The notes beneath the pieces are model-generated. The model did no database searches, had not been told where the DNA came from, and saw nothing but the letters and a program-made list of their open reading frames with translations. Both the position numbers and the translations under genes were made by a program. A DNA stretch of 64,000 bases from Palleronia sp. LCG004 (GTDB taxonomy: Bacteria > Pseudomonadota > Alphaproteobacteria > Rhodobacterales > Rhodobacteraceae), in NCBI RefSeq assembly GCF_032931615.1, contig NZ_CP136759.1:1550001-1614000 (forward strand), in the 5' to 3' direction. Positions 42,163 to 61,674 of the stretch are shown piece after piece; position 1 is the stretch's first letter, and each line of letters starts with the position of its first letter.

Positions 42163-42188
42163 CAACGGCCGCATCACACGGCAAAGAA

Positions 42189-42255
42189 TGGTGGGTGATA
42201 AGAGATTTGAACTCCTGACATCTTCGATGTGAACGAAGCAACTGCCAGCCAAGTT
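42189..42255 (-). tRNA. Truncated tRNA-Val(CAC): integration-site remnant (attL/attR)
   Basis: Read on the minus strand, this has a D arm (AACT/AGTT), an anticodon arm CTTCG-TTCACAT-CGAAG with anticodon CAC, a T arm AGGAG/CTCTT and the 3' acceptor strand ATCACCC plus ACCA. The 5' acceptor strand GGGTGAT expected to pair with it is absent; the bases there (TTGATCTC on the plus strand) do not pair. This is the displaced 3' portion left after an element integrated into the tRNA gene, so it is not a working tRNA. The intact copy should be at the far end of the element. Confidence 0.75.
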
Positions 42256-42887
42256 ATTGATCTCTTCCCCACAGTTCTCTTTATGCATGAACTATGGCGA
42301 TGGTCCAGACCGAGAACACGTAGTGATCCCGGTTCACTGAACCAGAGAGCGCTTCGTAATAATCTATCATTAAGTTGACGTCAGGAGATTTACCGTGAGA
42401 AAAGCACCAGTCAGTGCCACTAGCGGTACACTGGCCCATAGCATAATTTTATGCCCGATGGTGTCCTCGCTCTAACGCGTACATTCAATGTAGCTCGTAT
42501 GTGGCCTCTTCACAAAACGATCGATAGAAGGGTTCGCGGAAGCTTTCCAACTAAGCGCTATCATCTTACGCCGCATCGAAGCCTACCAGCTCGATGTTCC
42601 TCCAGGGGCTAGGCCACCGACCATTACGAATCACCCCAACGAGCTAAAAGCTTGCGAACGGACGATTCTGACAAAATTTGCAGCGACTACGCCATACCGC
42701 CATCGAAAGCGTACACGCCGACGTCCAACGAACCTCAGCGTGAAGGCAAATGTCAAACCAGTGTTACAGCGGAGCAGGTCATGTCTAGTTTATAGGTTCT
42801 CCGCTGTCACACACGTTCAACGCAAGTTCTGCTAGCCATTTCTGCAGAAAAGTGCAAAAAAGTGGTCGAAAGAGCTGGGAAGCATGC
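42256..42887. other. Non-coding left end of the prophage
   Basis: About 630 bp with no convincing gene. Base composition drops sharply compared with the chromosome. One 26-codon reading frame (GTG at about 42394, with an AGGAG upstream, ending near 42474) is too short to defend. No integrase or excisionase fragment is recognisable. It should contain the promoter of the ATPase gene. Confidence 0.5.
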
Positions 42888-44165
42888 ATGCTGATTGAAT
42901 TTTCTGTACAGAATCACCGTACGTTCCGCACCAAACAGACATTTACTATGGCAGCAACTGCGACGACACAGCGCGCGGGTCATGGACACGTACTTCAAAC
43001 CGGTTTTCCAGCAATGCCGTTTGTCCTTACTGAGGCATGTATATTCGGTGCCAATGGTTCCGGGAAGTCTTCCTTGATAAATGCTATGGCAGCGATGAAA
43101 CATTTTGTTCGAACTAGCGGCAAAAATTCGCCAGGCGATCAATTTGAGACTAAGCCATTCGTATTTGACTCAACATCACACAAAGAAGCTTCGGAATTCG
43201 AAGTGGTCTTTATCGTGGGCGATCTGATCTATCATTACGGTTTTTCGCTCACAAAAAACAGAGTTATCGAAGAATGGCTTTTTGCACGGTCAAAAACCAC
43301 AGGAAGAGAGCGCCACATATTCTCTCGGGAATTTAATCCCTTGGAGGGTGAATACGATTGGCACCTAAATTCCAGCCAATTGAAGGGCGAACGGGATAGC
43401 TGGAAGTCCCAAACCTTAGAGAATGCGCTGTTCCTCAGCACGGCAGTTCGACTCAATGCCGAATACCTAGATCCTGTCTTCAACTGGATTACAAAATCGT
43501 GGCAGTTGATATATTCAGACGAACTAGAGCATCGCACAAGCCGAACTACCGATTGGCTTAGGGAAGAGGAAAAGAAAAAGAGAATTTTGCAGTTTCTCGC
43601 AAGCGCCGATATAGAACTTGCTGACGTTAGCGTAGAAGACAAAGAAGTTCCTGCAGAAGTTTTTTCCGTTGTAAAGGCATTTGTCGAGAGCCAGAACGAT
43701 GGCGAAAAACTAGATATAAATGATATGAAAATGCCGGATCTCACCACCTATAGGGTTGACTCAGAGGGAACAAAGAGGAGCCTTGCTTTTAGAGAAGAAT
43801 CTTCTGGGACCCAAGCTCTATTTGGCTTATCAGCTGTAATACTAGATACCCTTGACAACGGAAGAACTTTGGTAGTGGATGAACTTAACACTGGACTTCA
43901 TCCACTGGCCTTTCAGCATCTAGTTGGCCTTTTTGCTTCAGAGAAAATAAATAGCAAAGGCGCACAGTTAGTTTTTACAACGCATGACACCTCAGTTGCA
44001 GACCAAGAATGCTTAGGAAGAGATCAGATTTGGATGGTAGAGAAAGATCCTCAGCTGTCGGCTCGCCTCGTTCCTCTGTCGGACTTCAAGGAACGTGGAG
44101 CTAAAGGGTTCCAAAAGAAGTATTTGGATGGTCGGTTTGGTGGTGTTCCCAGAGTACTTGAGTAA
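42888..44165 (+). CDS. AAA-family ATPase, AbiLi/RloA-like defence component
   Basis: A 425-residue ATPase of the AAA_15/AAA_21 type (ABC-like fold without membrane domain). The Walker A is GANGSGKS at residues 54-61, an ABC-like signature SSGTQ lies before the Walker B LVVDE at about 328-332, and the switch histidine is in FTTHDTS. The start MLIEFSVQNHRTF is typical of the family and is preferred over the GTG 12 codons upstream. It is followed after 6 bp by an RloB-like gene, the arrangement of the AbiL abortive-infection system. Codon use is far more AT-rich than the chromosome, indicating transfer. Pairing makes a phage-defence role likely but unproven. Confidence 0.82.
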   Translation: MLIEFSVQNHRTFRTKQTFTMAATATTQRAGHGHVLQTGFPAMPFVLTEACIFGANGSGKSSLINAMAAMKHFVRTSGKNSPGDQFETKPFVFDSTSHKEASEFEVVFIVGDLIYHYGFSLTKNRVIEEWLFARSKTTGRERHIFSREFNPLEGEYDWHLNSSQLKGERDSWKSQTLENALFLSTAVRLNAEYLDPVFNWITKSWQLIYSDELEHRTSRTTDWLREEEKKKRILQFLASADIELADVSVEDKEVPAEVFSVVKAFVESQNDGEKLDINDMKMPDLTTYRVDSEGTKRSLAFREESSGTQALFGLSAVILDTLDNGRTLVVDELNTGLHPLAFQHLVGLFASEKINSKGAQLVFTTHDTSVADQECLGRDQIWMVEKDPQLSARLVPLSDFKERGAKGFQKKYLDGRFGGVPRVLE

Positions 44166-44171
44166 ACTCTA

Positions 44172-44864
44172 ATGAAACGAAAATCAAAGTCTATTCGAGA
44201 ACTCAGACGGCCCCGCCCAACTAAAACTGAAAGAGACAAGGTATTAATCGTAACAGAGGGAGAGAAAACTGAGCCAGACTACTTCAATAGGCTCATTGCC
44301 ACTTTGGGATTAACTACGGCCAAAGTTCGCGTCTCGGGTGAAGGCGGAGCTGCTCCAGTGAGTGTATTCGAAGCTGCAGAACAAATTCTAATACGCGATG
44401 ACGATTTTGAACAAGTATATGTAGTGTTCGATAGAGATGAGCACGAATCTTATGATGAGGCTATTGCTAAAGTTCATGGCCTTTCTCAGAGAAATGCTTT
44501 TCGAAAGAAGACGATCAAGGCAATTACTTCTGTCCCGTGCTTCGAGGTTTGGTTCAGATTACACGCTTCTAATAGCTGCAAGCCTTATACCGGCAACGCA
44601 GGAGGTCAGACAGCGGCTAAAGCACTAGTTTCAGACTTGAGAACCGCCGAAATACATGGGGAAAAAGTATTTTCCAATTATGACAAAAAAAACTGCGAAG
44701 CTTTTTTTAGACAATTAGCTTTGCATCGTTCGGAAGCAAAAACTAGATCAGCTCGGGTGCTTAGCCAGGCAAAGGCTCGTGGCGATGCGGAACATCATGA
44801 AAACCCATCGACGAGAGTTCATCTAGTTGTCGAGGCATTAGAGAAACTATCTAAGAACTCATAG
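44172..44864 (+). CDS. RloB-like protein, AbiLii-type defence component
   Basis: A 230-residue RloB-domain protein. The N-terminal motif LIVTEGEKTEPDYF is at residues 25-38, and the acidic VVFDRDEH at about 84-91 gives the Glu plus DxD pattern of a TOPRIM-like nucleic-acid active site. SVPCFEVWFRLHA, typical of RloB proteins, follows. The first 20 residues are highly basic. It is in an operon with the ATPase. In known AbiL-type systems both genes are needed; the reaction of this component is not established here. Confidence 0.82.
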   Translation: MKRKSKSIRELRRPRPTKTERDKVLIVTEGEKTEPDYFNRLIATLGLTTAKVRVSGEGGAAPVSVFEAAEQILIRDDDFEQVYVVFDRDEHESYDEAIAKVHGLSQRNAFRKKTIKAITSVPCFEVWFRLHASNSCKPYTGNAGGQTAAKALVSDLRTAEIHGEKVFSNYDKKNCEAFFRQLALHRSEAKTRSARVLSQAKARGDAEHHENPSTRVHLVVEALEKLSKNS

Positions 44865-45573: not shown

Positions 45574-46023
45574 ATGACGCGCTCGACAATCTGGCTAGTT
45601 GGCGCATGGGGGCGATGCGTGATCGAGATCGGGGATGATGCATGGTCCAGAAGCAAGCTCTCTTCGCCAGTCATGTGCGCGGAGCGGGACGCTAAGCCCA
45701 AGATGACGGCCGGAGACGCGTTCGCTTGGGATCAGGTCGGCGCGCCCCGTGTCATACGATCGGTTCGACCCGTGGGCCCCGTGCTCCGTGCCGACGCCCC
45801 GACCAGCGGCCGGTCCTACGTGCCGCCTCCCGCGCCCGCTCTCGTTCCGGTCGGAGGCAAGTTTAAAAAGCCCTCAACGCGGCATGCGGTCGTGGATGGG
45901 CTACGCACTGGTATCGTATCGCTGCCCGGCGGCGCGCTGCTCCTGCTTACCGGCATTATCGGACTCGCGCTTCGCCGTTGCCATGGACCGTCCTCCAGAT
46001 ATCGCGTGGCCGTGTCAGGCTGA
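45574..46023 (+). pseudogene. Possible remnant of a VPLPA-CTERM protein (C-terminal sorting signal)
   Basis: The end of this 149-codon frame reads IVSLPGGALLLLTGIIGLALRR, which has the layout of a VPLPA-CTERM signal: short Pro-containing motif, hydrophobic stretch, basic tail. The preceding part has no signal peptide and does not look like a secreted domain, so if real it is a broken gene. It overlaps an opposing coding-like segment, and chance cannot be excluded. Confidence 0.25.
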
Positions 46024-46232
46024 TGGTATATCCCCAACCGTCGCTGAATGCGGAGTGTTACCTGCCGGGCGCGGCACGAGGCTGGAGATTCGGAGCCCTC
46101 GCGGTCCATCGTATCGTGAGCGCGAGTACGAGCTTCCAGCCAAGCATCACTACCGAATTCCGCGATCAGCTTCTCGGCGTCACGGTGAACTGCGGCACGC
46201 GCATCGAGGAATCTACGAACGAAATCGAGCAT
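45816..46232 (-). CDS. Hypothetical protein, possibly frame-disrupted
   Basis: The first 80 residues from MLDFVRRFLDARAAVHR look genuinely coding: amphipathic helices (AEKLIAEFGSDAWLEARTRA) and a QPDTATRYLED end that resembles small alphaproteobacterial phage or island proteins. The remaining 60 residues (SRSSAPPGSDT... onward) look like out-of-frame read-through, so the original gene probably ended near 45970. It is antisense to the VPLPA-like remnant. Function unknown. Confidence 0.35.
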   Translation of the reverse strand: MLDFVRRFLDARAAVHRDAEKLIAEFGSDAWLEARTRAHDTMDREGSESPASCRARQVTLRIQRRLGIYHQPDTATRYLEDGPWQRRSASPIMPVSRSSAPPGSDTIPVRSPSTTACRVEGFLNLPPTGTRAGAGGGT

Positions 46233-46307
46233 ACTGACAAGGTTGCATGCCAGCATGGCGAGGTGAGGGCCAGATTGTGTCCGACAGCCGACTTGTGAAA
46301 AATATTC

Positions 46308-46403
46308 GGGGCGCAGAAAAGTTTTCCTGCGCCCCTAACCAACCTTTCGGTAGATTAGATTCGCCCGGCCAAGGCACGAATCACATCAAAAGGTTGAAAT
46401 AGT
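46308..46403 (+). promoter_or_regulatory. Leader 1 with hairpin, upstream of the first VPLPA-CTERM gene
   Basis: A perfect 9-bp stem GGGGCGCAG (46308-46316) / CTGCGCCCC (46327-46335), loop AAAAGTTTTC, then 68 nt to the ATG containing CAACC and GAATCA (46378-46383). The same arrangement with different stem bases recurs at 47154-47249, so this is a duplicated element. It could be an RNA regulatory leader or a terminator/antiterminator. Confidence 0.5.
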
Positions 46404-47054
46404 ATGTTACGAACAATCGCAGCGAGTGCAATGCTCGCTCTTTGCGCAAGTGCTGCCTCGGCAGCGACACTTGTCTATACTGGAGACTACTACAACGAAA
46501 GGAACGTATCGGGAGATACCGAGCCATGTGTCAATTCGTGCAATGGAGTAGTTCAAGAAGGCTTTGGACCCTTTGACAGAATTCAAATGAAGGTCGAACT
46601 GAATCGTAGGCTTTTACCATTCGAATATTTTGATTTCTTCGAACGCAACCAGGTGTCGGACGAATCCGGGCTAACCGTTCTGTCTTTCTGGGCAAGCAAT
46701 GGTATTTTCAGCACCAGCCAAACAGATATCGCGTCTTTTACCGCAGGTGCTGACGGCAATATAGCTGAATGGGACATCAGATTCGGCGAGAATAGCGGGT
46801 TCGACGATGATTATTCGCAGTCAACCTCGCTTATGGACAGATCATCTCACCGGCGAGAGTACGCGCTCGAGGATGGCATCGGCGCAACTTTTGCCGATGC
46901 GTCGACCTACGGCCCAGGAACCTGGAGTTACGTCGAAGGTACCGCAGCTGCCCCGGACGAGATCGCAGCAGTACCGCTACCAGCTTCCGTTCCCCTCCTA
47001 GCGACCGGCTTCGGCATCCTAGCATTCATCCGACGTCGCAAAGCCACCTCTTAG
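46404..47054 (+). CDS. VPLPA-CTERM sorting domain-containing secreted protein
   Basis: A 216-residue exported protein. A Sec signal peptide occupies residues 1-20 (ends ASA). The middle is a Ser/Asp/Gly-rich beta-type domain without recognised motifs. The C-terminus AAVPLPASVPLLATGFGILAFIRRRK is a full VPLPA-CTERM signal, the substrate class of the exosortase XrtD type in Rhodobacterales, so the protein should be processed at the inner membrane and released or attached to the surface. An AAGG site precedes the ATG. Codon use is AT-rich. Confidence 0.75.
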   Translation: MLRTIAASAMLALCASAASAATLVYTGDYYNERNVSGDTEPCVNSCNGVVQEGFGPFDRIQMKVELNRRLLPFEYFDFFERNQVSDESGLTVLSFWASNGIFSTSQTDIASFTAGADGNIAEWDIRFGENSGFDDDYSQSTSLMDRSSHRREYALEDGIGATFADASTYGPGTWSYVEGTAAAPDEIAAVPLPASVPLLATGFGILAFIRRRKATS

Positions 47055-47153
47055 AGACTGTCCGAGCCGGAGGAATTTTCCGCAGACATATGTCGTCTAA
47101 GATCGAACTGCCTGACGTTGTTACAAGGTTACAGTAAGATAAATGCTTAAGCA

Positions 47154-47249
47154 GATCGGGGCAGAGGAACTTTTTCCGAGCCCCGATCACAACCGTTTGG
47201 TAACCTGATCATGCCGAGCCACGGCGAATCAAGTTACAGGATTGATATA
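47154..47249 (+). promoter_or_regulatory. Leader 2 with hairpin, upstream of the second VPLPA-CTERM gene
   Basis: A perfect 9-bp stem GATCGGGGC (47154-47162) / GCCCCGATC (47180-47188), with an inner GGAA/TTCC pairing. Then 61 nt to the ATG, containing ACAACCG and GAATCA (47226-47231), as in leader 1. Stem sequences differ between the two leaders while pairing is kept, which argues for a structural role. It also lies about 100 bp after the previous stop, so it might act as that gene's terminator. Confidence 0.5.
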
Positions 47250-47930
47250 ATGAGATCTCTTATTGCTGGAGGCGCACTGATTGCGGCCTCTGCCGTTATG
47301 GCAGACGCAGCAGTGTATCAGTACGACATTACAGTCGAATTAAAAGAAGCCACAGTTCTTCAAGCTTATGGATATTCGAACTCTAGTCCGACCAATATTC
47401 CGAGTGGCGTTTCATGTTTCGAAGGTGATTCCTACTTTACATGCGAAGGTGATGCATCTGGCGTGGAAGATCTACGAGGCACAGGTGCTCTTTCTGGATA
47501 CCCGGATATCTTATCTGCCTCTCTATTCTTAGATACTGATTATTCGATCCGCGACGGGGGGCGAGAACCCGTGTGTTTTGGATCCGGATTACTTTGCAGC
47601 AGATCCAGTATATATGGATATTACGCTTCCCCAACAGGATTTGGAATTTACCGATCCTTGAGCGGTCAAACAGATGAGAACTTCACATCTAATGGCTTCT
47701 TCTATGAGGATGATGCCTCATACGAATTCTCATTCGGCGGGATTGGATATTACACCATAGCGGGTATCAGATTGCAGTACGTGACTACGTCACTTGATAT
47801 CTCCGAAGTTTCGCCGATACCAGTTCCCGCGTCACTTCCGTTGCTACTCGCTGGTTTAGGCACCCTCGGGTTCGCCCGTCGGCGTAGCAATGAACGTAAA
47901 CAAACCCACACCTTCGGCACCAAGGATTAG
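47250..47930 (+). CDS. VPLPA-CTERM-type secreted protein, paralogue A
   Basis: A 226-residue exported protein. The signal peptide covers about residues 1-20 (MRSLIAGGAL... AVMADA). The mature domain starts AVYQYDITVEL and contains two Cys-bearing segments (GVSCFEGDSYFTC and VCFGSGLLCS). The C-terminal sorting signal is PIPVPASLPLLLAGLGTLGFARRR. Beginning and end of the mature domain match the next gene (AVYxYD, FSFGGxxY, xSLDISEVSPIPxPASLP), so the two are tandem duplicates. The start at 47250 is supported by alignment of the leader with that of the first gene. Confidence 0.72.
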   Translation: MRSLIAGGALIAASAVMADAAVYQYDITVELKEATVLQAYGYSNSSPTNIPSGVSCFEGDSYFTCEGDASGVEDLRGTGALSGYPDILSASLFLDTDYSIRDGGREPVCFGSGLLCSRSSIYGYYASPTGFGIYRSLSGQTDENFTSNGFFYEDDASYEFSFGGIGYYTIAGIRLQYVTTSLDISEVSPIPVPASLPLLLAGLGTLGFARRRSNERKQTHTFGTKD

Positions 47931-47933
47931 TTC

Positions 47934-48554
47934 ATGTCACCGTTTATTATCGCAGTCGTTGCGCTTGCAGTTTCCGTCGTTAATGCTGAGGCTGCTGTCT
48001 ACCGCTACGACGTCAGCATGGAGCGTAATTACGCTGGATATTTTAGCGTTTCGGGATCTAGCGATTTTTTTCCTGACGAAGTGCCAACCGGAGTTTCATG
48101 CCAAGGCCCCGCCCCATTAATTCAGTGCGATGGTTTCGGGGCCGAAGATGCCTTTACGATGTCTGACCTATTTCCACTAACGACTACAGCAACATACATA
48201 TTCGATACTGCTTCGCCGAACGCGAACCCTTTTTGCATAGGATCTGGCCCGCTCTGTCGAGCACTTGAATTTGGGATCACGATGGTGACTGCCTCACCTT
48301 CCGGTTTTACGGTCGATTCATCTCTATCCGCTGGCGGTTACTTCGTTGACCAAGACCGCCTCTTCTATGCTGATGACGGCCAGAACCCGTTCTCGTTTGG
48401 CGGCGTCGATTATAAAGCCGGCGGAATCACCGTCAGTTATAACAGAACGGGACTGAATATTTCGGAGGTATCACCGATTCCGCTTCCTGCAAGCCTGCCT
48501 ATGCTTTGTGCTGGAATAGCGCTTATCGGCTTTCTTCGTCGTAGAACGACTTAA
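47934..48554 (+). CDS. VPLPA-CTERM-type secreted protein, paralogue B
   Basis: A 206-residue exported protein 3 bp after paralogue A, so co-transcribed. Signal peptide at residues 1-20, mature start AVYRYDVSMERN, cysteines in GVSCQGPAPLIQC and CIGSGPLC, and C-terminal signal PIPLPASLPMLCAGIALIGFLRRR. The pattern of paired cysteines parallels paralogue A, suggesting the same fold with disulfides. No family function can be assigned. Confidence 0.72.
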   Translation: MSPFIIAVVALAVSVVNAEAAVYRYDVSMERNYAGYFSVSGSSDFFPDEVPTGVSCQGPAPLIQCDGFGAEDAFTMSDLFPLTTTATYIFDTASPNANPFCIGSGPLCRALEFGITMVTASPSGFTVDSSLSAGGYFVDQDRLFYADDGQNPFSFGGVDYKAGGITVSYNRTGLNISEVSPIPLPASLPMLCAGIALIGFLRRRTT

Positions 48555-48560
48555 TCGGTT

Positions 48561-48584
48561 GGCCCCCGGCGTGAACCGGGGGCC
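48561..48584. terminator. Bidirectional terminator between VPLPA genes and tail spike gene
   Basis: A 9-bp perfect stem GGCCCCCGG (48561-48569) / CCGGGGGCC (48576-48584) with a 6-nt loop between two converging genes. The T-run on either side is short. It separates the cargo zone from the late operon. Confidence 0.7.
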
Positions 48585-48589
48585 GCTTA

Positions 48590-51500
48590 TTACGCGGCGC
48601 GTTCTGGTAGCGCCGGCATATCCTCGATTGTCCGATCGTCCATGATCTGAACCAGAACGTCGGTGACATACTTCCGCATGGCTTCTTCGCCTTCCGAGTT
48701 CGGATGGATGCCGTCGCCTTCCAGCCAATTTTCGTGGTTCGAGATCATCCATCGATAGAAATCGAAGTACGGCCGGCCGGACGGGCCGATGCACCACGGG
48801 GCTTCTCTCTTTAGAAGCGGGATGATCTCTTGCTCGTTGAAGGGCTCGGACCCGTTTTCAGGGCTGGCAAAGGTGGACCCGCCGTAGTTTCGGAACGTGA
48901 GAGACCCCAGGAACACGCGGCCGGGATGCTGGCGCATCCGACTAACGACCACGTTGAGCCGTTCCCTGAACAACGTCAGATCCGCCGTCGCATGGGGCTT
49001 CGTCGCCGTCACATCATTGCCGCCCGAATGGACCACAACGATCGCGTCGGGATGTGCAGCAAGAACCTCGTCGAGACGCTTCGTGAAGCTGTCCAGCTTC
49101 TCCCCGCCGAACCCGTAGCCGAACACCTGAACCGGCCGCCCCTTCTCGATCATCTTCGCCGATGCGTTCGTGTTGGGGTTCACAAGGTCGCGCCCGAAAG
49201 ATTGCTCGACGATGCTCGCCCCCATGACCACGACCTTCGCAGGACGGCCGATCGCGCGCGATGCGTTCATTGCCCCACTGGTCGGATACGTCGGGCGTGG
49301 AATGCCGAAGAAGTCCAGCTCGACGCCAGCCGCGGCAAAGCCGGTGCCGTTCGCCTTGCTGTTGGCAAGCGGCCTTTCGAGCCTTTCCGTCCCCGGGGGC
49401 GATCCATAAGTACCGTCCCGGGCGATGGGATTGCTCCCCCGGCTGCGGTCCCACTTGTATTCGATTATGAGATCCTTCGGCCACGTCGCTTCGGAAGTGT
49501 TTTTGAGGATCGCGGCCCCTTCGATGAAGGAGATCTCGACCTCGCCAGATCGCGTGACGGTTTGATCCGTTGCAATCTCGTCGGCCCCGAGCTTGGCGAA
49601 ATGCACGCCGTCCGTGTACGCCGAAGGGGGCTGACCGAAATCCGTTCCCTTGTGGGCGATCTGAACGCTTTCCCCAGGCGCAAGCGGCGCGGTGAGCCTT
49701 ATGGCTTCGCCACCGCCGTCCTTATAGCCGCGCGTCCGGTATGTCGGGATGCTGTCGAGCATGGACATAGGACCGAACCCGATATCAGGCTGCGCCAGAT
49801 TGGGCTGATGGACGATGTTCCCGCGTTCGATGATCGTCCCGTCCGCGAGAGGCACATTGACCTCATCAGGGCGAAGGAATCTGACCCCCTCGGGCTTCCA
49901 TTCGTTCGCGTTGATCTCTGCCGCCAGCATCCGATTGACCAGCGTGTTATGCTCCCAGACGATCGGATCGATCTCGTCCCCGGTTACGAGACCGGAATTG
50001 ATGAATGCGCCGGCAGACTTGGGCTCGAACAGGTGGAAATTGATCCTCGGGGTCGTCGGGAAAACAAACATGCTGCGCCGCGTCGTGACGCCCCCGAACG
50101 CGATCTTGATCGGAACGCTTGTCATGTGAGACGCGAGGAAAACCACCCCGTCGATCCGCACGTTGTTGTTCCTGACAGATTTGCCCGTGTTCATATGCTG
50201 GAAAGCGAGGATCGTCTCACCGCCCTCGCAAACGCTCCGCTGCATGTTAAGCGCCATGTCGTGCACGTCATCATGGCCCATGAAGTTCCAGCGGAGCACA
50301 GGCTGCTGCGTGTGATACGGATTAATGTTCTCCCACCATCCGTTGTAGGTGAAGAAATCGCACCCATCCATGACGGCATGATCGACACCATTGATCCGCA
50401 TGCAGCCGTGCTGGTTGTGAGCGCCGTTTTTCCAGCCGCCGGACATCGCATCCCGGTGCTGTGTCAACTGCGTTCCGAGGAATGCCATGCGATTTGTACC
50501 GCTGAAAACGGCGTAATCCCCCCAGTTCGTGATGAGCGTATTCGACAGGATCGAGGTGATATGGTGATCCTCGTTATCCTGGTGCGAATTGCCGAGATAC
50601 AGGATCCCGGCGTCGAAACCGGAGATAAAGATATCGTGGAGCAGGAAGTATTGCGCCTTTCGATCCGGCTCACCCCCGCGCGAGAACGTGAAGGCGCGCG
50701 CCCTGCCGCCGGTTTCGCTCCAGCTCTGCCAGCTTCCGATAATGTCGACACCCACGAACGTCATATCGAGGCCGTGGCCCGGATCCTCGCGCGGCGACTT
50801 ATCGATCATGTAGAACAGCTCGCCGCTCCGCTTATCGGTCGTAACCTTGGCCCGGCCCCCGGGGGCTGCGCAGACATAGACATTCCGCAAGTAGGTCCCG
50901 ACGCCATTCTCGAAACGATGCTCGCCCGGCATGTAATGCTCGACACCCAAAGCGAGCATAACCCGGAAGGGTTGCCCGTTCCGCGCTTTCTTCAATGCGT
51001 CGTAAATGCTGGTAAATGTGCCCGCGCCGGTCGGGGCTGCGGAATAATCCCCGTCCGGGTGGACATAGTTCGTTTGCGCCCCGGCGAAGAGGATATCGGG
51101 ATCCTTGACGGTGAAGGGGCCGAGGGTGTGTTTCGCGAGCTTGCCGGTCGATGGCTCATAGACGATGACGGACGGTCTGTAAGTGCCGGGTTTCGTGTAA
51201 GTATGACCAACCTGCGGCCCGTAGCCGATGTTGGCGTTTCGCATGTGCTCCATGATGTTATCCGGCCGCGTGAAGCGCGAACCCGGATCGTCGAAATCCC
51301 ACAGGAAGATGAATTCGTGATAGCGGCGGTCCCACGTCTCGCCCTCTGCGGGGGCCGGCGTATCAAATCCGTTGTATCCGGTGACTTTGAAATAGAAGCC
51401 TTCGGGACCAACCTGCATGTCGCTGCGCCACGTCGTCACCTCGACAGACGCGTTGGCCGATTCAGCGTCCCAATCGGCCACCCGCATGATCCCCTCCGGT

Positions 51501-51646
51501 GCAGGCACCGCAGGGGCAACCGGAGCTTGCCCCCAGGACGGAACATTGCCCAGAGCCCTTTCTGCAAATCCCCCTTCTACTTGAGGAAGCAACCCCGCCT
51601 CGATCGCGTCACCGATTTTGAAGCCGTGAATTCCAAATCGCGCCAT
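48590..51646 (-). CDS. Phage tail spike/fiber with C-terminal SGNH hydrolase domain
   Basis: A 1,018-residue receptor-binding type protein, last gene of the late operon. The N-terminus (MARFGIHGFKIGDAIEAG) is the probable virion-attachment part, followed by a PKD-like segment (about residues 55-180) and a long beta-helix-like region rich in Asn/Gly turns. From about residue 804 an SGNH/GDSL esterase domain begins: block I VVMGAS with Ser811, block III SGGND with Asn877, block V GDGIHP with Asp978 and His981. It would deacylate a surface polysaccharide. The start overlaps the previous stop by one base. Confidence 0.8.
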   Translation of the reverse strand: MARFGIHGFKIGDAIEAGLLPQVEGGFAERALGNVPSWGQAPVAPAVPAPEGIMRVADWDAESANASVEVTTWRSDMQVGPEGFYFKVTGYNGFDTPAPAEGETWDRRYHEFIFLWDFDDPGSRFTRPDNIMEHMRNANIGYGPQVGHTYTKPGTYRPSVIVYEPSTGKLAKHTLGPFTVKDPDILFAGAQTNYVHPDGDYSAAPTGAGTFTSIYDALKKARNGQPFRVMLALGVEHYMPGEHRFENGVGTYLRNVYVCAAPGGRAKVTTDKRSGELFYMIDKSPREDPGHGLDMTFVGVDIIGSWQSWSETGGRARAFTFSRGGEPDRKAQYFLLHDIFISGFDAGILYLGNSHQDNEDHHITSILSNTLITNWGDYAVFSGTNRMAFLGTQLTQHRDAMSGGWKNGAHNQHGCMRINGVDHAVMDGCDFFTYNGWWENINPYHTQQPVLRWNFMGHDDVHDMALNMQRSVCEGGETILAFQHMNTGKSVRNNNVRIDGVVFLASHMTSVPIKIAFGGVTTRRSMFVFPTTPRINFHLFEPKSAGAFINSGLVTGDEIDPIVWEHNTLVNRMLAAEINANEWKPEGVRFLRPDEVNVPLADGTIIERGNIVHQPNLAQPDIGFGPMSMLDSIPTYRTRGYKDGGGEAIRLTAPLAPGESVQIAHKGTDFGQPPSAYTDGVHFAKLGADEIATDQTVTRSGEVEISFIEGAAILKNTSEATWPKDLIIEYKWDRSRGSNPIARDGTYGSPPGTERLERPLANSKANGTGFAAAGVELDFFGIPRPTYPTSGAMNASRAIGRPAKVVVMGASIVEQSFGRDLVNPNTNASAKMIEKGRPVQVFGYGFGGEKLDSFTKRLDEVLAAHPDAIVVVHSGGNDVTATKPHATADLTLFRERLNVVVSRMRQHPGRVFLGSLTFRNYGGSTFASPENGSEPFNEQEIIPLLKREAPWCIGPSGRPYFDFYRWMISNHENWLEGDGIHPNSEGEEAMRKYVTDVLVQIMDDRTIEDMPALPERAA

Positions 51647-54308: not shown

Positions 54309-54502
54309 GTCGAGCCACCCCGCGCCTTGAAGATGCGACTGGCGATGAAGGTCAGGGCATAGCCCACGAAGCCGGTCAGCGCGGCCGCGATGCTTTCGAC
54401 CTGGAAGGTGATCGTCCCGGCGACGGGATCGTGCACCGCGACCCCCTGCCCCGACAGCCAGGCGCAGGCGAAATAGATCGCCATCCGAATATAGACGCCC
54501 AT
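54305..54502 (-). CDS. Small membrane protein, holin candidate
   Basis: A 65-residue protein with two hydrophobic segments (about residues 4-17 and 36-58) and a basic C-terminus (SRIFKARGGST), starting with ATG overlapping the endolysin stop by one base. Adjacent to the endolysin, it fits a class II holin, but two other membrane proteins nearby could also be the holin. Confidence 0.5.
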   Translation of the reverse strand: MGVYIRMAIYFACAWLSGQGVAVHDPVAGTITFQVESIAAALTGFVGYALTFIASRIFKARGGST

Positions 54503-55047
54503 CAGTTCCGCCCCCCGAATGCCTGCCGCAGAGCGCTGAGAAGAGCCGCCCAGAAGCCGCGCGCAGGCGGTTGCGCGGTGGGGGCGTTGCGACGGCGCAG
54601 GACATCATCCCACCACGCGCGCGCATCGAAGCCCGGGCATTGCGTGGCGGCACCGGGCATGTCGCGGTGCCCCTCGACGATCGCGCCCGGGTAGCGTTCC
54701 TGCAGCTTGTCGATCAGATCGATCATCGCCCGGATCTGCGCCGGCGTCCGGCTATCGAACCCGATGTTCGGCGCGGCTTTCCTCACGCCACCCTCGAAGC
54801 AGATGCCGATGCTCGACGGGTTCGAGCCCTTGACATGCGCGCCCATCTCGAACCGACCGGGCTGCGACAGGTCGCGGCCGGTCTCGACCGCCCCGGCCTT
54901 GCGGATGAAGTAGTGATATCCGACCTCGCGAAACCCGCGCTTGCGGTGCATCCGATCGATATCGGCGACCGAGTAATCACGTTCGACGGGTGTCGCGCTG
55001 TAATGGATGACGATGTGCGTCACCCGGGCATCGGGCAGATAGGACAT
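54502..55047 (-). CDS. N-acetylmuramoyl-L-alanine amidase endolysin
   Basis: A 181-residue amidase_2/T7-lysozyme-type enzyme cutting the amide bond between MurNAc and L-Ala. The zinc ligands are His15 (HIVIHYSA), His127 (EGHRD) and Cys137 (QCPG), with Tyr44 in GYHYF in the active site. There is no signal peptide, so release depends on a holin. A C-terminal hydrophobic/basic tail (FWAALLSALRQAFGGR) may aid membrane contact. Confidence 0.9.
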   Translation of the reverse strand: MSYLPDARVTHIVIHYSATPVERDYSVADIDRMHRKRGFREVGYHYFIRKAGAVETGRDLSQPGRFEMGAHVKGSNPSSIGICFEGGVRKAAPNIGFDSRTPAQIRAMIDLIDKLQERYPGAIVEGHRDMPGAATQCPGFDARAWWDDVLRRRNAPTAQPPARGFWAALLSALRQAFGGRN

Positions 55048-56217: not shown

Positions 56218-56560
56218 TCGCGATCGGCTCCCCCAGATCCTCGGGCGTCGGATTGATCGGCTCGCCGTAAGCGGGCAATGCCAGCCAATCGACACCCCAT
56301 TCGACTTCGGCCGGCGGGCTCAACAGTTCGGCAGGTGGATTGCGTCCATAGGGAATGATGATCGTCAAAAGGATCTTGCCGTCGATCCGCTCGACCCCGC
56401 CGGGTCCGATCCATTCGTTCCCCACCGCGTCGGTCGGAAGCCACTCGCCTTCCTGCAGGAACGAGAAATCCAGTTCCTCCCCGTTCAATGTCAGAACGTC
56501 GCCGTCGACGGACAGCGTCAAATGTTTCTCGAGCCGCTGAGTGATGATCCGAAACCGCAT
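56210..56560 (-). CDS. Phage protein of unknown function, beta-rich
   Basis: A 116-residue protein beginning MRFRIITQRLEKHLTLSVDGDVLTLNG, predicted beta-rich with a Pro-rich C-terminus (NPPAELLSPPAEVEW). The start overlaps the J-like gene stop by one base (TGATG). It resembles small proteins that follow the host-specificity gene in Rhodobacterales siphophages, without known role. Confidence 0.55.
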   Translation of the reverse strand: MRFRIITQRLEKHLTLSVDGDVLTLNGEELDFSFLQEGEWLPTDAVGNEWIGPGGVERIDGKILLTIIIPYGRNPPAELLSPPAEVEWGVDWLALPAYGEPINPTPEDLGEPIANG

Positions 56561-59500
56561 CAGGTGATCTCCATCAATCGCCACCGAAGGTCGCCGCGAA
56601 CCCTCTGCACGTTCGCCTGAGACCCTTGGATCTTGAGAACGATGCTTGCGTATCCGTCGCCCCGGGTCATGTAGATGACCTTGACGTCCCAGCCCCACCG
56701 GAAGCTATTGAGCGCCCGGCCGCTGTCGTAATCGACGCTGACATTGCCCTCCAATCCCGCGACGGCTTCATATGCCCGCGTGGAGCCCCGCCACGCCTCG
56801 ACCTGAAATCCTGTGTCGACATACCAAGAACCCCTTTCCGTGATGGCAGGCGTGTTGTCTGTGGCAAAGTTCACGTAGAAAGCGCCGGTCGCGACCTGCA
56901 GTTGTCGCCGGACCTTGATGTTCTGGAATTCCGCGTATCCGCCCCGGAAGATGCCCCAGCCCGCGGAATTCGAGCTGTAGTTGTCGGACTGCAGCCCCCC
57001 GCTGAAGATCGACATGCCATCGAAGCGCAGGGCCGCCCAGTTGCTGCCTGCGGCGACCTCAAGCATCGCGCTGTTGCGGCTTGTCCCGGCGGCGAGACGC
57101 ACAAGGGCAACCGAGTTTCCGTTGCTGTCGACAGTCGTGCGCGCGACCAGTTCGGCCATCGCCTCGACATCCTTGAAGCGGGAATTCGCGCTGATCTTGT
57201 ATTGCGAGAACGCTTCGCGATCATTGGCAACGGTCTGCCCGAGCGAATTGACCGACGACTCGATGTTTCCGAAGTCGGCAAAGAGCGTGTTGATCTGCCC
57301 GGCCTGCGCGCCCTGCTTGTTCGTGAGAACGACGATCTGCTCATCATGGCCCGCGATCGTCGTGTCGTAGCGCGCCCGGATCTCGGTTCGGAGCGAGGCG
57401 ATCTGCCGATCGGCCTCCGCCTTGGCATAGGTCGTCTCGCGCACGAACGCCTTGGCTTCGGCTTCCTGCGTCACGTCCTGCAGATAGGCGTTCGTCCACG
57501 AGAAATAGGCACCCGCCGGAAGGCCGGTGGCGACAAAGGCGAATTCGTCGCAATACGCTCCGCCCGCAACCTTCCCCTCCCCTGAAACGAAGGTCCAGGT
57601 GTTCGCCGGGACAACCTGCGACTTGATGCCGGTGAAATTGGAGTATTCCCCATCAGACTTTGCGGACCTGGCGGACATTTGCAGGGTCGTCGTTGCCGTG
57701 AACCGGAACCATCCTCCGACGCGGAGGGTCCGCCCTACGCTGACCGCAAGGCCCCTGTAGCGAACGTCGACCCTCCCATCTGCCGCCGCCGTTGCCCGGC
57801 CGCTGTAGGATGCGCCATGGGTGGCCCCGGCAACCGTGCCCGCCCTTACAAGCCCGGTCGTGCCGTTGGCTCCCGACCATAGCCCGATCGTGCCTTCCTT
57901 CGTGAAGCGGGGATCAAGGAACAGGTTATCCCGGCTTTCAGCCAGTAGTTCCGACCGCTCGACGGCCGTGTTCGCATCGCTCACCGCGCCCTCGATCTCG
58001 GCGTTCAAACCGTCAAGATACGAGACAAGCCCCGCCTCGTAGTGCTCGCCAAGTTCGTCCAGAAGCTCGATCTGCTGAACGATCTGGGGAACGAGATCGG
58101 CCTTGCCGATCCGTGCATCGGGCGTGGTGACGACAATTTGCGGCTCGGGTCGCGTCCGGCGATCCGATACCGCCTCGCCGATCACGCCATAAGTCTCGGC
58201 CGGCAAAAGCCCGTCGCTGATCACCATCCGCCCGGACCTGACAGCCGAGGTCGCGCCTTCGCTCACGACATCACCCGTTGCCAGGTGCACGATCCGCCAC
58301 GCCACCGCCCGCGCCACCAGGTCCGCGCTCCAGGTCAGCTCGATCGCGGGACGCCGCGCCTCGCCACCCTCGCCCTTGATCGCGAAGGCCCGAACGCCCC
58401 ACCCGTCCACGCCCGGCACCTCGGGCTCGATAATCGAGCGGGGCGGCGCGACCGGAAGCAACGCATCGAACGCGCTGTCGGGATCGTAATCGGACGGATC
58501 GCGCTCGCGCACCAGAAACGCGCTCGCCAGCGTCTCGGGATCGACAACCTGCCGCTCGATCTCGAAGAGCTTCGCCTTGTATCCGTTATGCTTGCTCGTC
58601 CATGAAATCGTATCGAGCGCGTTGTGCCCGAGCGCTTCCTGCGCGAGCGGGATCACGTGCGACCGGAAGCGGCGGTTATCCTTTCCGGTTTCCCGCATCA
58701 GCGCGCGGACCTGTCGGCCGAACGGCACCGCGTCGAGGCGCAGCTCGGCGGTCAGCCGCCGCCCGCCATCGGCCGCTTCCCATTCCGGGTTGATCCACTC
58801 GACGGCTTCCGTCGCTTCCCACGCATTGTCGACGTCGGGATAGGTTGCCGACACCGCGTTGTAGGTTTCCGCAAGCCCCGGGAACGGCTCGAACTCGCGC
58901 GGATCGGTGACGAGAATGTCGTCATCGGTGATATGCAGCGTGGCAGGCGGCGGCGCGCCGACCGAGATTACCCACCGGCCGCCGATCTCAGCGATCTTGC
59001 CACCACATGCCTTCAGCAGCTCGTCGATCACGTCGAGCGGCTCTTCGTCGACACCGACTTCGAGCCCCGCGCGATACCGCTTGCGGGTTCCGCCCCCGTC
59101 GACCGGCACAGCTTCGTCGCAGGCATTCATCGCCGCCGCGAAGTATGACAGAACAGGATCATCGGGATCGGCACCGATGCCCCATACATTCCCGTCCGGC
59201 AGGCGGATCCCGATGATGATGTTGTAGATCATCACGACCGGGTTCGCCGTATAGCTCCACGTCGAGGGATCATCGACGCGATGCCCGCCCGATCCACCGC
59301 GCGCGCTGTCGAGACGCGGATCATAGAGCCGCATCCCCAGAACCTCGAAAAGGCTGCGCGGCTGGCCCGCATACTTCTCTGTATCGAAGCGGAACGTCTG
59401 GTGCGCGTAGGCCACGCCCGGCAACACCATGTCCGAGCGCCACGGCCGATCCGGGTCGCTTCCGAGCGCATCGAGCAGGTAGGGATCCGCAACGCTTTGC

Positions 59501-60009
59501 GTGCCGTCGTGGAAGGTCAGCCAGGTTCGATCGTCGAGACGTCCGAGCGCCTCGCGCCCGGCAAGCTTGCCGTAGGTCTCCGACACATAATCGTCATACT
59601 CGACAGGCTCGCCATCGATGAAGACGCGCGTCAGCGCCTCGATCGGGACGTCGGCAAGCGAGATCACGTGCACCCGCTGCCGGTTGTCCTTTCCCCAGCT
59701 CGCGGGCGGTGCGGCGAATGTTCCGGCGGTCGCGCACCATCCGAAGATCATGGTCTGCGCATTGGTGCCGCCGGTCTGCGTGACCTGTGTCCGGATGCCC
59801 TGCGGGCGCTGCTGACGCCGCCCGAGCGCCATCGAGATCCGCGACGTGACGACACCCACCGCAAGCCGTGTCAGAACGCCGCCGAATCCACTGGACGCGA
59901 GCCCCGCCGTCACCCACCCGCTGAAGGCGGCGAGCGCGCCCACGACCGGCCCCGCCTCTGCCGGCTGCGCAAAGAGCGCGACGGCCGCGAGAAGCGCGAT
60001 AAACCTCAT
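56560..60009 (-). CDS. Phage tail tip / host specificity protein J-like
   Basis: A 1,149-residue central tail-tip protein. It starts with a signal-peptide-like hydrophobic segment (about residues 1-19, ending AEAG) and a second hydrophobic segment near 24-60. The core (residues 80-560) has features of the J/gp13-type hub: VISLADVPIEALTRVFIDGEPVEY, VNPVVMIYNIIIGIRLPDG-type sequence and DEEPLDVIDELLKACGG. A fibronectin-like section follows at about 560-650, a coiled region, then a DUF1983-like C-terminal end. It likely forms the baseplate hub and receptor contact. It overlaps both neighbours by 1-4 bp. Confidence 0.82.
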   Translation of the reverse strand: MRFIALLAAVALFAQPAEAGPVVGALAAFSGWVTAGLASSGFGGVLTRLAVGVVTSRISMALGRRQQRPQGIRTQVTQTGGTNAQTMIFGWCATAGTFAAPPASWGKDNRQRVHVISLADVPIEALTRVFIDGEPVEYDDYVSETYGKLAGREALGRLDDRTWLTFHDGTQSVADPYLLDALGSDPDRPWRSDMVLPGVAYAHQTFRFDTEKYAGQPRSLFEVLGMRLYDPRLDSARGGSGGHRVDDPSTWSYTANPVVMIYNIIIGIRLPDGNVWGIGADPDDPVLSYFAAAMNACDEAVPVDGGGTRKRYRAGLEVGVDEEPLDVIDELLKACGGKIAEIGGRWVISVGAPPPATLHITDDDILVTDPREFEPFPGLAETYNAVSATYPDVDNAWEATEAVEWINPEWEAADGGRRLTAELRLDAVPFGRQVRALMRETGKDNRRFRSHVIPLAQEALGHNALDTISWTSKHNGYKAKLFEIERQVVDPETLASAFLVRERDPSDYDPDSAFDALLPVAPPRSIIEPEVPGVDGWGVRAFAIKGEGGEARRPAIELTWSADLVARAVAWRIVHLATGDVVSEGATSAVRSGRMVISDGLLPAETYGVIGEAVSDRRTRPEPQIVVTTPDARIGKADLVPQIVQQIELLDELGEHYEAGLVSYLDGLNAEIEGAVSDANTAVERSELLAESRDNLFLDPRFTKEGTIGLWSGANGTTGLVRAGTVAGATHGASYSGRATAAADGRVDVRYRGLAVSVGRTLRVGGWFRFTATTTLQMSARSAKSDGEYSNFTGIKSQVVPANTWTFVSGEGKVAGGAYCDEFAFVATGLPAGAYFSWTNAYLQDVTQEAEAKAFVRETTYAKAEADRQIASLRTEIRARYDTTIAGHDEQIVVLTNKQGAQAGQINTLFADFGNIESSVNSLGQTVANDREAFSQYKISANSRFKDVEAMAELVARTTVDSNGNSVALVRLAAGTSRNSAMLEVAAGSNWAALRFDGMSIFSGGLQSDNYSSNSAGWGIFRGGYAEFQNIKVRRQLQVATGAFYVNFATDNTPAITERGSWYVDTGFQVEAWRGSTRAYEAVAGLEGNVSVDYDSGRALNSFRWGWDVKVIYMTRGDGYASIVLKIQGSQANVQRVRGDLRWRLMEIT

Positions 60010-61015: not shown

Positions 61016-61674
61016 CTGAGCGTCTGTTGCCACGTGATGGACCCGCCCGCCCAATGCGTTCGGCGGTGAAGCGGCTTGCGCGTCTCACCGGGCATCAAAA
61101 CCGCCTTCACGATCGGGCGCGTGAACCGTAGGGGCGCGGCATCGGGGATGCCCGGGCGCAGATGCGGCCTGACCTCGACCGGCCCCGTCTCGCCTTGCGC
61201 GTCGGCCTGCACCGGCGCGACAATCTCTTGATATGCGAGCGACGTGTTGTCCGGCCCATAGTAGAAGCTGAATCGGTCGCCGATCGACAGGCGGTAATTC
61301 GCGGGAAGCCCGGCAATCCGAAGGATGCGCCGATCGGCGAAATCCTCCGCCACGACGGGCGAAGCGGTCGCGATCTGTGCGCCCAGCGGATCGGCCGCCG
61401 GCCATGCGGCATTCGGATCGGTCGCAAGGAACTTGGCCCCGCTTCCGCGCAGAAGGTCGAGCCGCGCGCAGGCGATCCGGCCCACGTCGAGCGGCATGTC
61501 GGCGAACGGAAACTCGCCACGCCAAAGCCGCGGGCCGAGATCGGAATCGACGATCTCGCCGCCCCCGGTCTCGCCGACGCGCCGCCGCTCGGACAACTCG
61601 ACCAGCAGCCCATCGAGCGACAGCCGCACCAGGTCCATGAAGTCGGACAGCAACAGAGGATTGGAAAGCGGCAT
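61012..61674 (-). CDS. Phage tail protein, distal-tail-like
   Basis: A 220-residue protein beginning MPLSNPLLLSDFMDLVRLSLDG, rich in beta strands (LSIGDRFSFYYG, VEVRPHLRPG). Its C-terminus HWAGGSITWQQTLR is typical of the protein after the tape measure in these phages. The ATG overlaps the tape measure stop by one base. It probably joins tail tube to tip. Confidence 0.62.
   Translation of the reverse strand: MPLSNPLLLSDFMDLVRLSLDGLLVELSERRRVGETGGGEIVDSDLGPRLWRGEFPFADMPLDVGRIACARLDLLRGSGAKFLATDPNAAWPAADPLGAQIATASPVVAEDFADRRILRIAGLPANYRLSIGDRFSFYYGPDNTSLAYQEIVAPVQADAQGETGPVEVRPHLRPGIPDAAPLRFTRPIVKAVLMPGETRKPLHRRTHWAGGSITWQQTLR

Follow-up and report, generated by a model that had tools for sequence, protein, structure and literature searches.

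The window, that is, the whole stretch of 64,000 nucleotides analyzed here (C1:1550001-1614000, in the five-contig, 3.87 Mb genome of Palleronia sp. LCG004), contains the cargo-bearing end of a prophage in which three consecutive genes (genes 1-3; Table 1) encode proteins with the VPLPA-CTERM sorting signal. A preliminary description had read these genes as encoding N-terminal signal peptides and C-terminal VPLPA-type tails, and had placed them on the opposite strand directly behind the gene for a tail spike; the tails and the placement were borne out. The tails read VPLPAS...RRR, PIPVPAS...RRR and PIPLPAS...RRR in genes 1, 2 and 3, respectively, and signal peptides were recognized by eye in all three. 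Genes 1 and 2 matched the TIGR03370 (VPLPA-CTERM) model with 31.8 and 31.9 bits, above its curated cut-off of 25.35 bits, while gene 3 scored 22.2 bits as a whole protein, below that cut-off, and 25.4 bits in the genome search, marginally above it, and exceeded the PF07589 threshold (21.3 against 20.7). Matches to TIGR03370 with E <= 10 occurred in 7 of 14 control genomes and exceeded the cut-off in none, indicating that the tails of genes 1-3 are not chance matches. The full open reading frame of gene 2 spans 47211-47930 (239 aa), and a start at the ATG at 47250 yields a normal signal peptide.

The spike gene is encoded on the minus strand and therefore converges with gene 3, whose end lies 35 nt from the spike stop codon. 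A G+C-rich hairpin occupies the interval between the two stop codons and, on the basis of its predicted fold, is a possible shared terminator of both genes; the terminator scan raised no flag for it.

The element carrying these genes is a 38.1 kb siphophage-type prophage inserted in tRNA-Val(CAC). It is delimited by a perfect 54-bp attachment-site repeat, with one copy in the window and the other at the opposite prophage end, outside it. An intact tRNA-Val(CAC) is found at C1:1630228-1630302, 16 kb past the window, with an integrase gene adjoining. ARAGORN detected no tRNA in the window, because the copy located there reproduces only the 3' part of the tRNA. Searches with PHROGs profiles identified genes for an integrase, terminases, a portal, a head protein, a tape measure, a J-like protein, an amidase and the spike between the repeats. 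Together with an empty site, the integrase, the attachment repeats and the packaging, head and tail genes make up the features of a temperate tailed phage. To look for the empty site, sequence from the left flank was fused to that of the tRNA side in a 400-base query. Among the 13 other genomes of the genus, two match this query across the junction and so present the empty site (G004, query positions 1-282 at 83%; G011, positions 1-300 at 80%); the other 11 matched on the tRNA side alone or barely past the junction. Since the repeats and the empty sites bracket genes 1-3, these genes lie inside the inserted element, 4.2-6.4 kb from its end. The claim of a tRNA-bounded prophage thus stands as regards the boundary at the tRNA repeat, and requires correction in that the intact tRNA lies outside the window. 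A boundary at 48.56 kb, which the preliminary description had named as an outcome that would overturn its reading, was checked and is ruled out by the attachment repeats and by G004 and G011, in which the empty site is contiguous. We are hence highly confident that genes 1-3 are prophage cargo.

Gene 3 is a paralogue of gene 2, with 40% identity across 202 aa, and the likeness of gene 1 to both is limited to the sorting tail. The G+C content at third codon positions ranges from 0.43 to 0.52 in genes 1-3, compared to 0.74-0.88 in eight other VPLPA genes of the same genome (six on C1, one on C2 and one on C3), a base composition foreign to the VPLPA genes of the host. The leaders of genes 1 and 2, about 100 nt in length, align locally with a score of 33, a value reached by none of 1000 shuffles (maximum 24), and the 28-nt stem-loop in the gene 1 leader was called terminator-like by the terminator scan for the minus strand. 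A search of the genome with 104 bases of the leader shared by genes 1 and 2 returned only itself and three 14-base matches, and the leaders of the eight other host VPLPA genes and of two other phage VPLPA genes scored 10-17, against a shuffle mean of 14.2. Genes 1 and 2 combine similar leaders with dissimilar mature proteins. A fourth, degenerate tail (VSLPGGALLLLTGIIGLALRR, at 45922-45972) is encoded in an open reading frame that is possibly the remnant of a further VPLPA gene.

Table 1. Features of the prophage end in the window, with strand and supporting evidence
Feature	Position	Strand	Details
Attachment-site copy, 3' part of tRNA-Val(CAC), 54 bp	42186-42239	-	Identical to C1:1630225-1630278
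AAA_21 ATPase, AbiLi-like, start codon uncertain	42852-44165	+	PF13304 129.5 bits; PADLOC AbiLi 291.6 bits
RloB-like protein, AbiLii-like	44172-44864	+	PF13707 106.2 bits; PADLOC AbiLii 85.3 bits
Open reading frame with degenerate VPLPA-like tail	45574-46023	+	TIGR03370 12.8 bits (protein) or 16.8 bits (genome search), below cut-off
Gene 1 5' leader	46304-46403	+	Related to gene 2 leader; contains 28-nt stem-loop
VPLPA-CTERM gene 1	46404-47054	+	216 aa; TIGR03370 tail; signal peptide by eye MLRTIAASAMLALCASAASA
Gene 2 5' leader	47146-47249	+	Related to gene 1 leader
VPLPA-CTERM gene 2	47250-47930	+	226 aa from ATG 47250; TIGR03370 tail
VPLPA-CTERM gene 3	47934-48554	+	206 aa; paralogue of gene 2
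G+C-rich hairpin between two convergent stop codons	48561-48584		RNA fold -23.6 kcal/mol for 48554-48592
Tail spike	48590-51646	-	1018 aa; aa 1-797 like an exopolysaccharide-locus protein; aa 805-992 GDSL esterase domain
Phage amidase (lysis)	54502-55047	-	phrog_822 164.5 bits
J-like tail protein, phage-lineage marker	56560-60009	-	phrog_5616 484.5 bits; phrog_31 87.1 bits
Tail tape measure protein	61674-63746	-	phrog_8462 167.6 bits

Recurrence and linked divergence in other phages

The J-like tail protein was used as a marker of the phage lineage. Of 394 genomes sampled from the family, 33 encode it, at a total of 38 places. The stretch behind the J-like gene was covered at 35 of these (leaving out G157:C6, G154 and the window itself), with 7 of the 35 stretches shorter than 8 kb owing to contig ends, and it was scanned with a tail profile built from 12 VPLPA tails encoded in the LCG004 genome outside the prophage. 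A VPLPA gene was detected in one of the 35 stretches, in a genome of another genus (G128) whose prophage is likewise inserted in tRNA-Val(CAC), with a 56-bp repeat. This single gene (773698-774303; 31.4 bits) and the spike gene are convergent and leave a gap of 16 nt. Among the J-like contigs of IMG/VR, 80 of 228 were scanned, many of them fragments, and 2 of the 80 presented a VPLPA tail; a whole-record search of the 16 contigs with flank-limited stretches returned the same two positives. One of them is the G128 prophage (100% over 12,447 bases). In the other, IMGVR_UViG_2600255081_000002, the VPLPA gene converges on the last tail gene with a 4-nt overlap and has an endolysin gene on its far side, and is therefore flanked by phage genes. 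Two further scans, which do not constitute a fair sample because they started from positive cases, encompassed 14 and 17 loci and contributed one new case, the sister phage IMGVR_UViG_2832548308_000002, whose VPLPA gene is also convergent and overlaps the last tail gene by 13 nt. In all four phages the VPLPA genes lie on the strand opposite to the tail genes.

The preliminary description had asked whether homologues of the three mature domains recur beside tail spikes or in tRNA-integrated elements. VPLPA genes as such do follow the spike in further phages, including one prophage in tRNA-Val; the searches brought up no recurrent homologues of the mature domains. Searches with genes 1 and 2 against 5.8 billion proteins returned no full-length relative besides themselves, and two weak matches to gene 2 (P0003 and P0004) extended over 33% and 29% of it. 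No homologue of genes 1-3 was found in GenBank phages, nor of genes 2 and 3 in IMG/VR, in a search restricted to these two genes. A clear relation between the mature domains of the different cases was seen in one of 15 pairs, that of genes 2 and 3; the score of gene 1 against the 2600255081 VPLPA protein (z 4.0, a value that 1 of 300 shuffles attained) is a lead only. Another VPLPA protein of the LCG004 genome (L007), used as a control, yielded one full-length relative and two weak matches. The near-orphan status of genes 1 and 2 was considered as a mark of phage-driven diversity and dropped, as this control is nearly an orphan too.

The degenerate tail at ~45.9 kb and the absence of the cargo from most related prophages searched would be consistent with chance-acquired, host-type genes carried as functionless passengers. 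This account has to contend with three intact reading frames, with the related leaders, with a base composition unlike that of the eight other host VPLPA genes and with the repeated occurrence of such genes at this position in other phages. We consider it very improbable. The gene neighborhood, which comprises tail and lysis genes (on both sides in 2600255081_000002), and the esterase domain of the window spike would fit proteins made late in infection that help virions leave or hold to the exopolysaccharide matrix, or that free debris from it. The opposite-strand location in all four phages and, in the window, the hairpin separating the two stop codons speak for expression independent of the late operon; we regard such a role in release or in the virion as quite unlikely.

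A comparison of the two sister phages revealed a gradient of divergence along the operon. Their J-like proteins are 95% identical, as are a 132-aa protein (95%) and a 140-aa protein (94%), and the next tail protein, of 808 aa, shows 79% identity, in a series that leaves out one 135-aa gene. Identity drops to 55% in spike A and to 27% in spike B, for which the likeness detected by BLAST is confined to the N-terminal ~53 residues. In the VPLPA gene, the DNA upstream and at the start is 87.5% identical over 272 bases, and the signal peptide (18 of 20 residues) and the sorting tail (25 of 29) are conserved, whereas the mature part shares 45 of 148 aligned residues, a score that shuffled sequences also reach (94 of 500; 68 of 300). 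This is what an exchange of spike and mature domain as one unit would leave.

The spike, the exopolysaccharide locus and the sorting path

Relatives of the spike were sought within the genomes compared. The closest one found for residues 1-797 of the window spike is a protein of the same genome (C5:121806-124166; 68% identity), encoded 6.3 kb from the exosortase gene xrtD if C5 is taken as circular, in the neighborhood of a flippase-type gene, glycosyltransferases, a transposase gene and an O-antigen-ligase-like gene (22.1 bits, below cut-off). The GDSL domain is present in the phage copy alone, and not in its C5 relative. In the congener G011, a 44% relative of the window spike is located at the end of a contig with exopolysaccharide-type genes. 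Similarly, the closest relative found for the G128 spike (58%) is G128:C8:21613-23535, which lies 4.8 kb from the G128 XrtD; its surroundings include a ligase-like gene (21.8 bits, under the cut-off), a flippase-type gene and genes that, judged by eye, encode glycosyltransferases. In a third genome, G394 (L171:3757-7982 and L210:1389-5020; G394:C92:1389-5020), the two last tail proteins of the prophage, encoded by neighboring genes, show 34% and 32% identity to adjacent proteins on the XrtD contig, 41 kb from XrtD; no VPLPA gene was found in this prophage. Between genera, the same spike and locus proteins share 21-28% identity, with 32-35% over two short stretches.

Among the proteins compared, spike and XrtD/exopolysaccharide-locus protein are thus mutually nearest within the genome in three genera (68%, 58% and 34%). 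This within-genome likeness suggests that the spike and the locus protein handle the same polysaccharide, and it suggests a way to predict the polysaccharide used by a phage. Exchange of genes between phage tails and polysaccharide loci seems to occur, in one direction or the other. Depolymerase tail spikes are a known kind of phage protein, and the window spike resembles them in being a large last tail gene product with an esterase domain; it differs in that its nearest relative found is a host XrtD/exopolysaccharide-locus protein, and its depolymerase activity is putative only. A search of solved structures with an alignment of the spike returned no match by sequence.

The preliminary description had proposed checking the host genome for an XrtD-type exosortase, and one is present: XrtD (TIGR04152) is encoded at C5:5127-6596, outside the prophage, and scores 634.9 bits against a cut-off of 400. 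C5 also contains genes resembling those of XrtA/PEP-CTERM exopolysaccharide systems, with scores below the curated cut-offs of those models. The genome contains 22 VPLPA matches with E <= 10, of which 16 exceed the cut-off; these comprise genes 1-3 and 13 others, indicating that the VPLPA sorting path is in use in this host. Genes 1-3 share with the VPLPA-CTERM/XrtD system (TIGR03370, TIGR04152) the tail motif, the hydrophobic stretch, the basic end, a signal peptide recognized by eye and the presence of XrtD in the host, and depart from it in that the substrates are here prophage genes beside a spike, with XrtD on C5. It is likely that XrtD places the products of genes 1-3 at the cell surface. 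Across the lineage, XrtD is present in 10 of the 33 genomes carrying the J-like gene. One carrier (G164) presents 14 VPLPA matches and none to the XrtD model; its tails are perhaps served by another exosortase, or the assembly has a gap.

A tentative role in phage exclusion

Lysogenic-conversion (moron) genes are a familiar component of prophages. Genes 1-3 share with them their accessory nature, the opposite strand, the foreign composition and the hairpin at the end, and differ in that their product is apparently placed by a host exosortase. The reading that we tentatively favor, at somewhat below an even chance, is that the temperate siphophage-type prophage uses genes 1-3 for lysogenic conversion, and that these genes are paired with its spike and exclude phages bearing that spike. 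The proteins would be exported by the Sec pathway and, once XrtD has processed them, would come to lie on the cell surface or within the exopolysaccharide, where they could alter or mask the polysaccharide used by the neighboring spike. The lysogen and the cell debris freed from it would then stop adsorbing phages with that spike, and re-adsorption would probably be blocked. The three genes and the remnant could represent a stack gathered against several spikes. An effect on biofilm or phage receptors, as suggested in the preliminary description, is likewise conjectural. Among single mechanisms, exclusion accounts best for the location of the genes behind the spike as well as for the linked change in the sister phages.

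Exclusion lipoproteins, such as Llp of T5, Cor of T1 and Phi80 and Lpp of the mEpimmI phages, provide a parallel. They too are small exported phage proteins, encoded beside receptor-binding proteins or among structural genes: the gene for Llp neighbors that for the receptor-binding protein pb5 (PMC9586334), and the type of exclusion protein found in mEpimmI phages goes with the receptor used (PMC11893012; see also PMC12685063). A comparable placement is observed in all four phages, with distances of 35 nt in the window and 16 nt in G128, whereas the two IMG/VR phages have overlaps (4 nt and 13 nt), provided that the spike is the adsorption protein, as we infer. Genes 1-3 differ from exclusion lipoproteins in their size (~200 aa), their exosortase tail, their probable polysaccharide target and the conjectural nature of their exclusion activity. 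Inspection by eye of the three signal peptides revealed no lipobox of the form [LVI][ASTVI][GAS]C (PMC11893012), and we therefore regard genes 1-3 as a functional parallel to Llp and Cor, and not as members of that group.

A different form of lysogenic conversion, acting via aggregation or the matrix, would have the proteins retain exopolysaccharide on the lysogen, to its advantage, with no pairing to the spike and with the site behind it serving as a tolerated insertion point. A PEP-CTERM protein is able to keep exopolysaccharide on the cell, a point in favor of either form of conversion: overexpression of PepA in Aquincola resulted in less released and more bound exopolysaccharide (PMC9850573). 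The 13 other host VPLPA-CTERM matches over the cut-off, which attest to a sorting path in use, and the AbiL-like pair at the prophage end, which indicates that accessory genes gather there, are also in keeping with this alternative. Nonetheless, PepA is reported in the same paper to have no effect on biofilm formation or swarming (PMC9850573), and retention of the matrix leaves unexplained both the joint change of spike and VPLPA mature domain in the sister phages and the fact that every VPLPA gene found in the searched stretches lies directly behind the last tail gene. We consider it possible, if somewhat unlikely.

The exclusion hypothesis can be extended to a cognate pair, in which a spike from the family of XrtD/exopolysaccharide-locus proteins would go with a matching protein, inserted into that polysaccharide by the exosortase of the same locus and shutting out phages with the same spike; the two would be swapped as a unit and the exclusion genes stacked in lysogens, as three genes and a remnant in the window. 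In this extended form we deem it unlikely. Several observations weigh against exclusion. Near-orphan mature domains are not peculiar to the phage copies. The linked divergence stems from one phage pair, and graded drift may contribute to the pattern; the spikes of this pair are named by position and size only, the two last tail genes of 2600255081 having no PHROGs match and the final one no Pfam match. The cargo is present in 2 of the 10 XrtD-positive carriers, and 6 of the 10 (G023, G143, G283, G319, G363 and G394) showed none in the 11 kb or more that were searched beyond the J match, the stretch being short in G396 and G154 not being covered; since most XrtD-positive carriers are without it, the cargo is an option of the lineage and no fixture. 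None of the 23 XrtD-negative carriers showed VPLPA cargo, five of them (G134, G157, G164, G345 and G434) over short stretches only, and the association of cargo with XrtD does not reach significance (2 of 10 versus 0 of 23), the chance that both cargo cases fall among XrtD-positive carriers being 0.085. As G164 illustrates, VPLPA tails and the XrtD model do not always occur together. Lastly, no sigma-70-type promoter was found on the plus strand of 46100-48700.

To our knowledge, most exosortase substrates have no known function. Substrates encoded beside a phage spike offer a handle on this problem, in that their function would be expected to involve phage adsorption or the polysaccharide coat. 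If exclusion is indeed their role, it would constitute a further path for surface change by prophages, beside exclusion lipoproteins, and would bring exopolysaccharide makers, the exosortase that goes with them and phage spikes together in a single system open to testing. In the open-licence literature surveyed on VPLPA-/PEP-CTERM proteins, exosortases and phage (including PMC12642866, PMC4886054 and PMC9012009), we found no account of phage-borne exosortase substrates.

Neighboring genes and additional observations

The AAA_21 ATPase and RloB-like genes (42852-44864) are located between the attachment-site copy and the VPLPA genes, and resemble AbiLi and AbiLii in PADLOC matches that cover part of the profiles only and carry no stated cut-offs here. 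On the basis of these matches, the pair is a probable phage-borne defense system. The cargo end of the G128 prophage (L048:13479-17270) contains small gene pairs that, by eye, appear to resemble HicAB and Phd/RelE toxin-antitoxin pairs.

A search of IMG/VR with a degenerate VPLPA codon pattern returned 11 contigs, one of which (L154) presents a real-looking tail. The protein encoded at L154:617-1345 (IMGVR_UViG_3300048837_000015), on a quite different phage contig, has a signal peptide by eye and a VPLPA-like tail; its gene lies near a DNA-ligase-like gene, also recognized by eye, with no spike beside it in the 4.5 kb covered. In the LCG004 chromosome, a VPLPA-CTERM gene (C1:1634063-1634137; 396 aa frame) is located 3.8 kb past the far end of the prophage, and its product appears glycerophosphodiesterase-like by eye.

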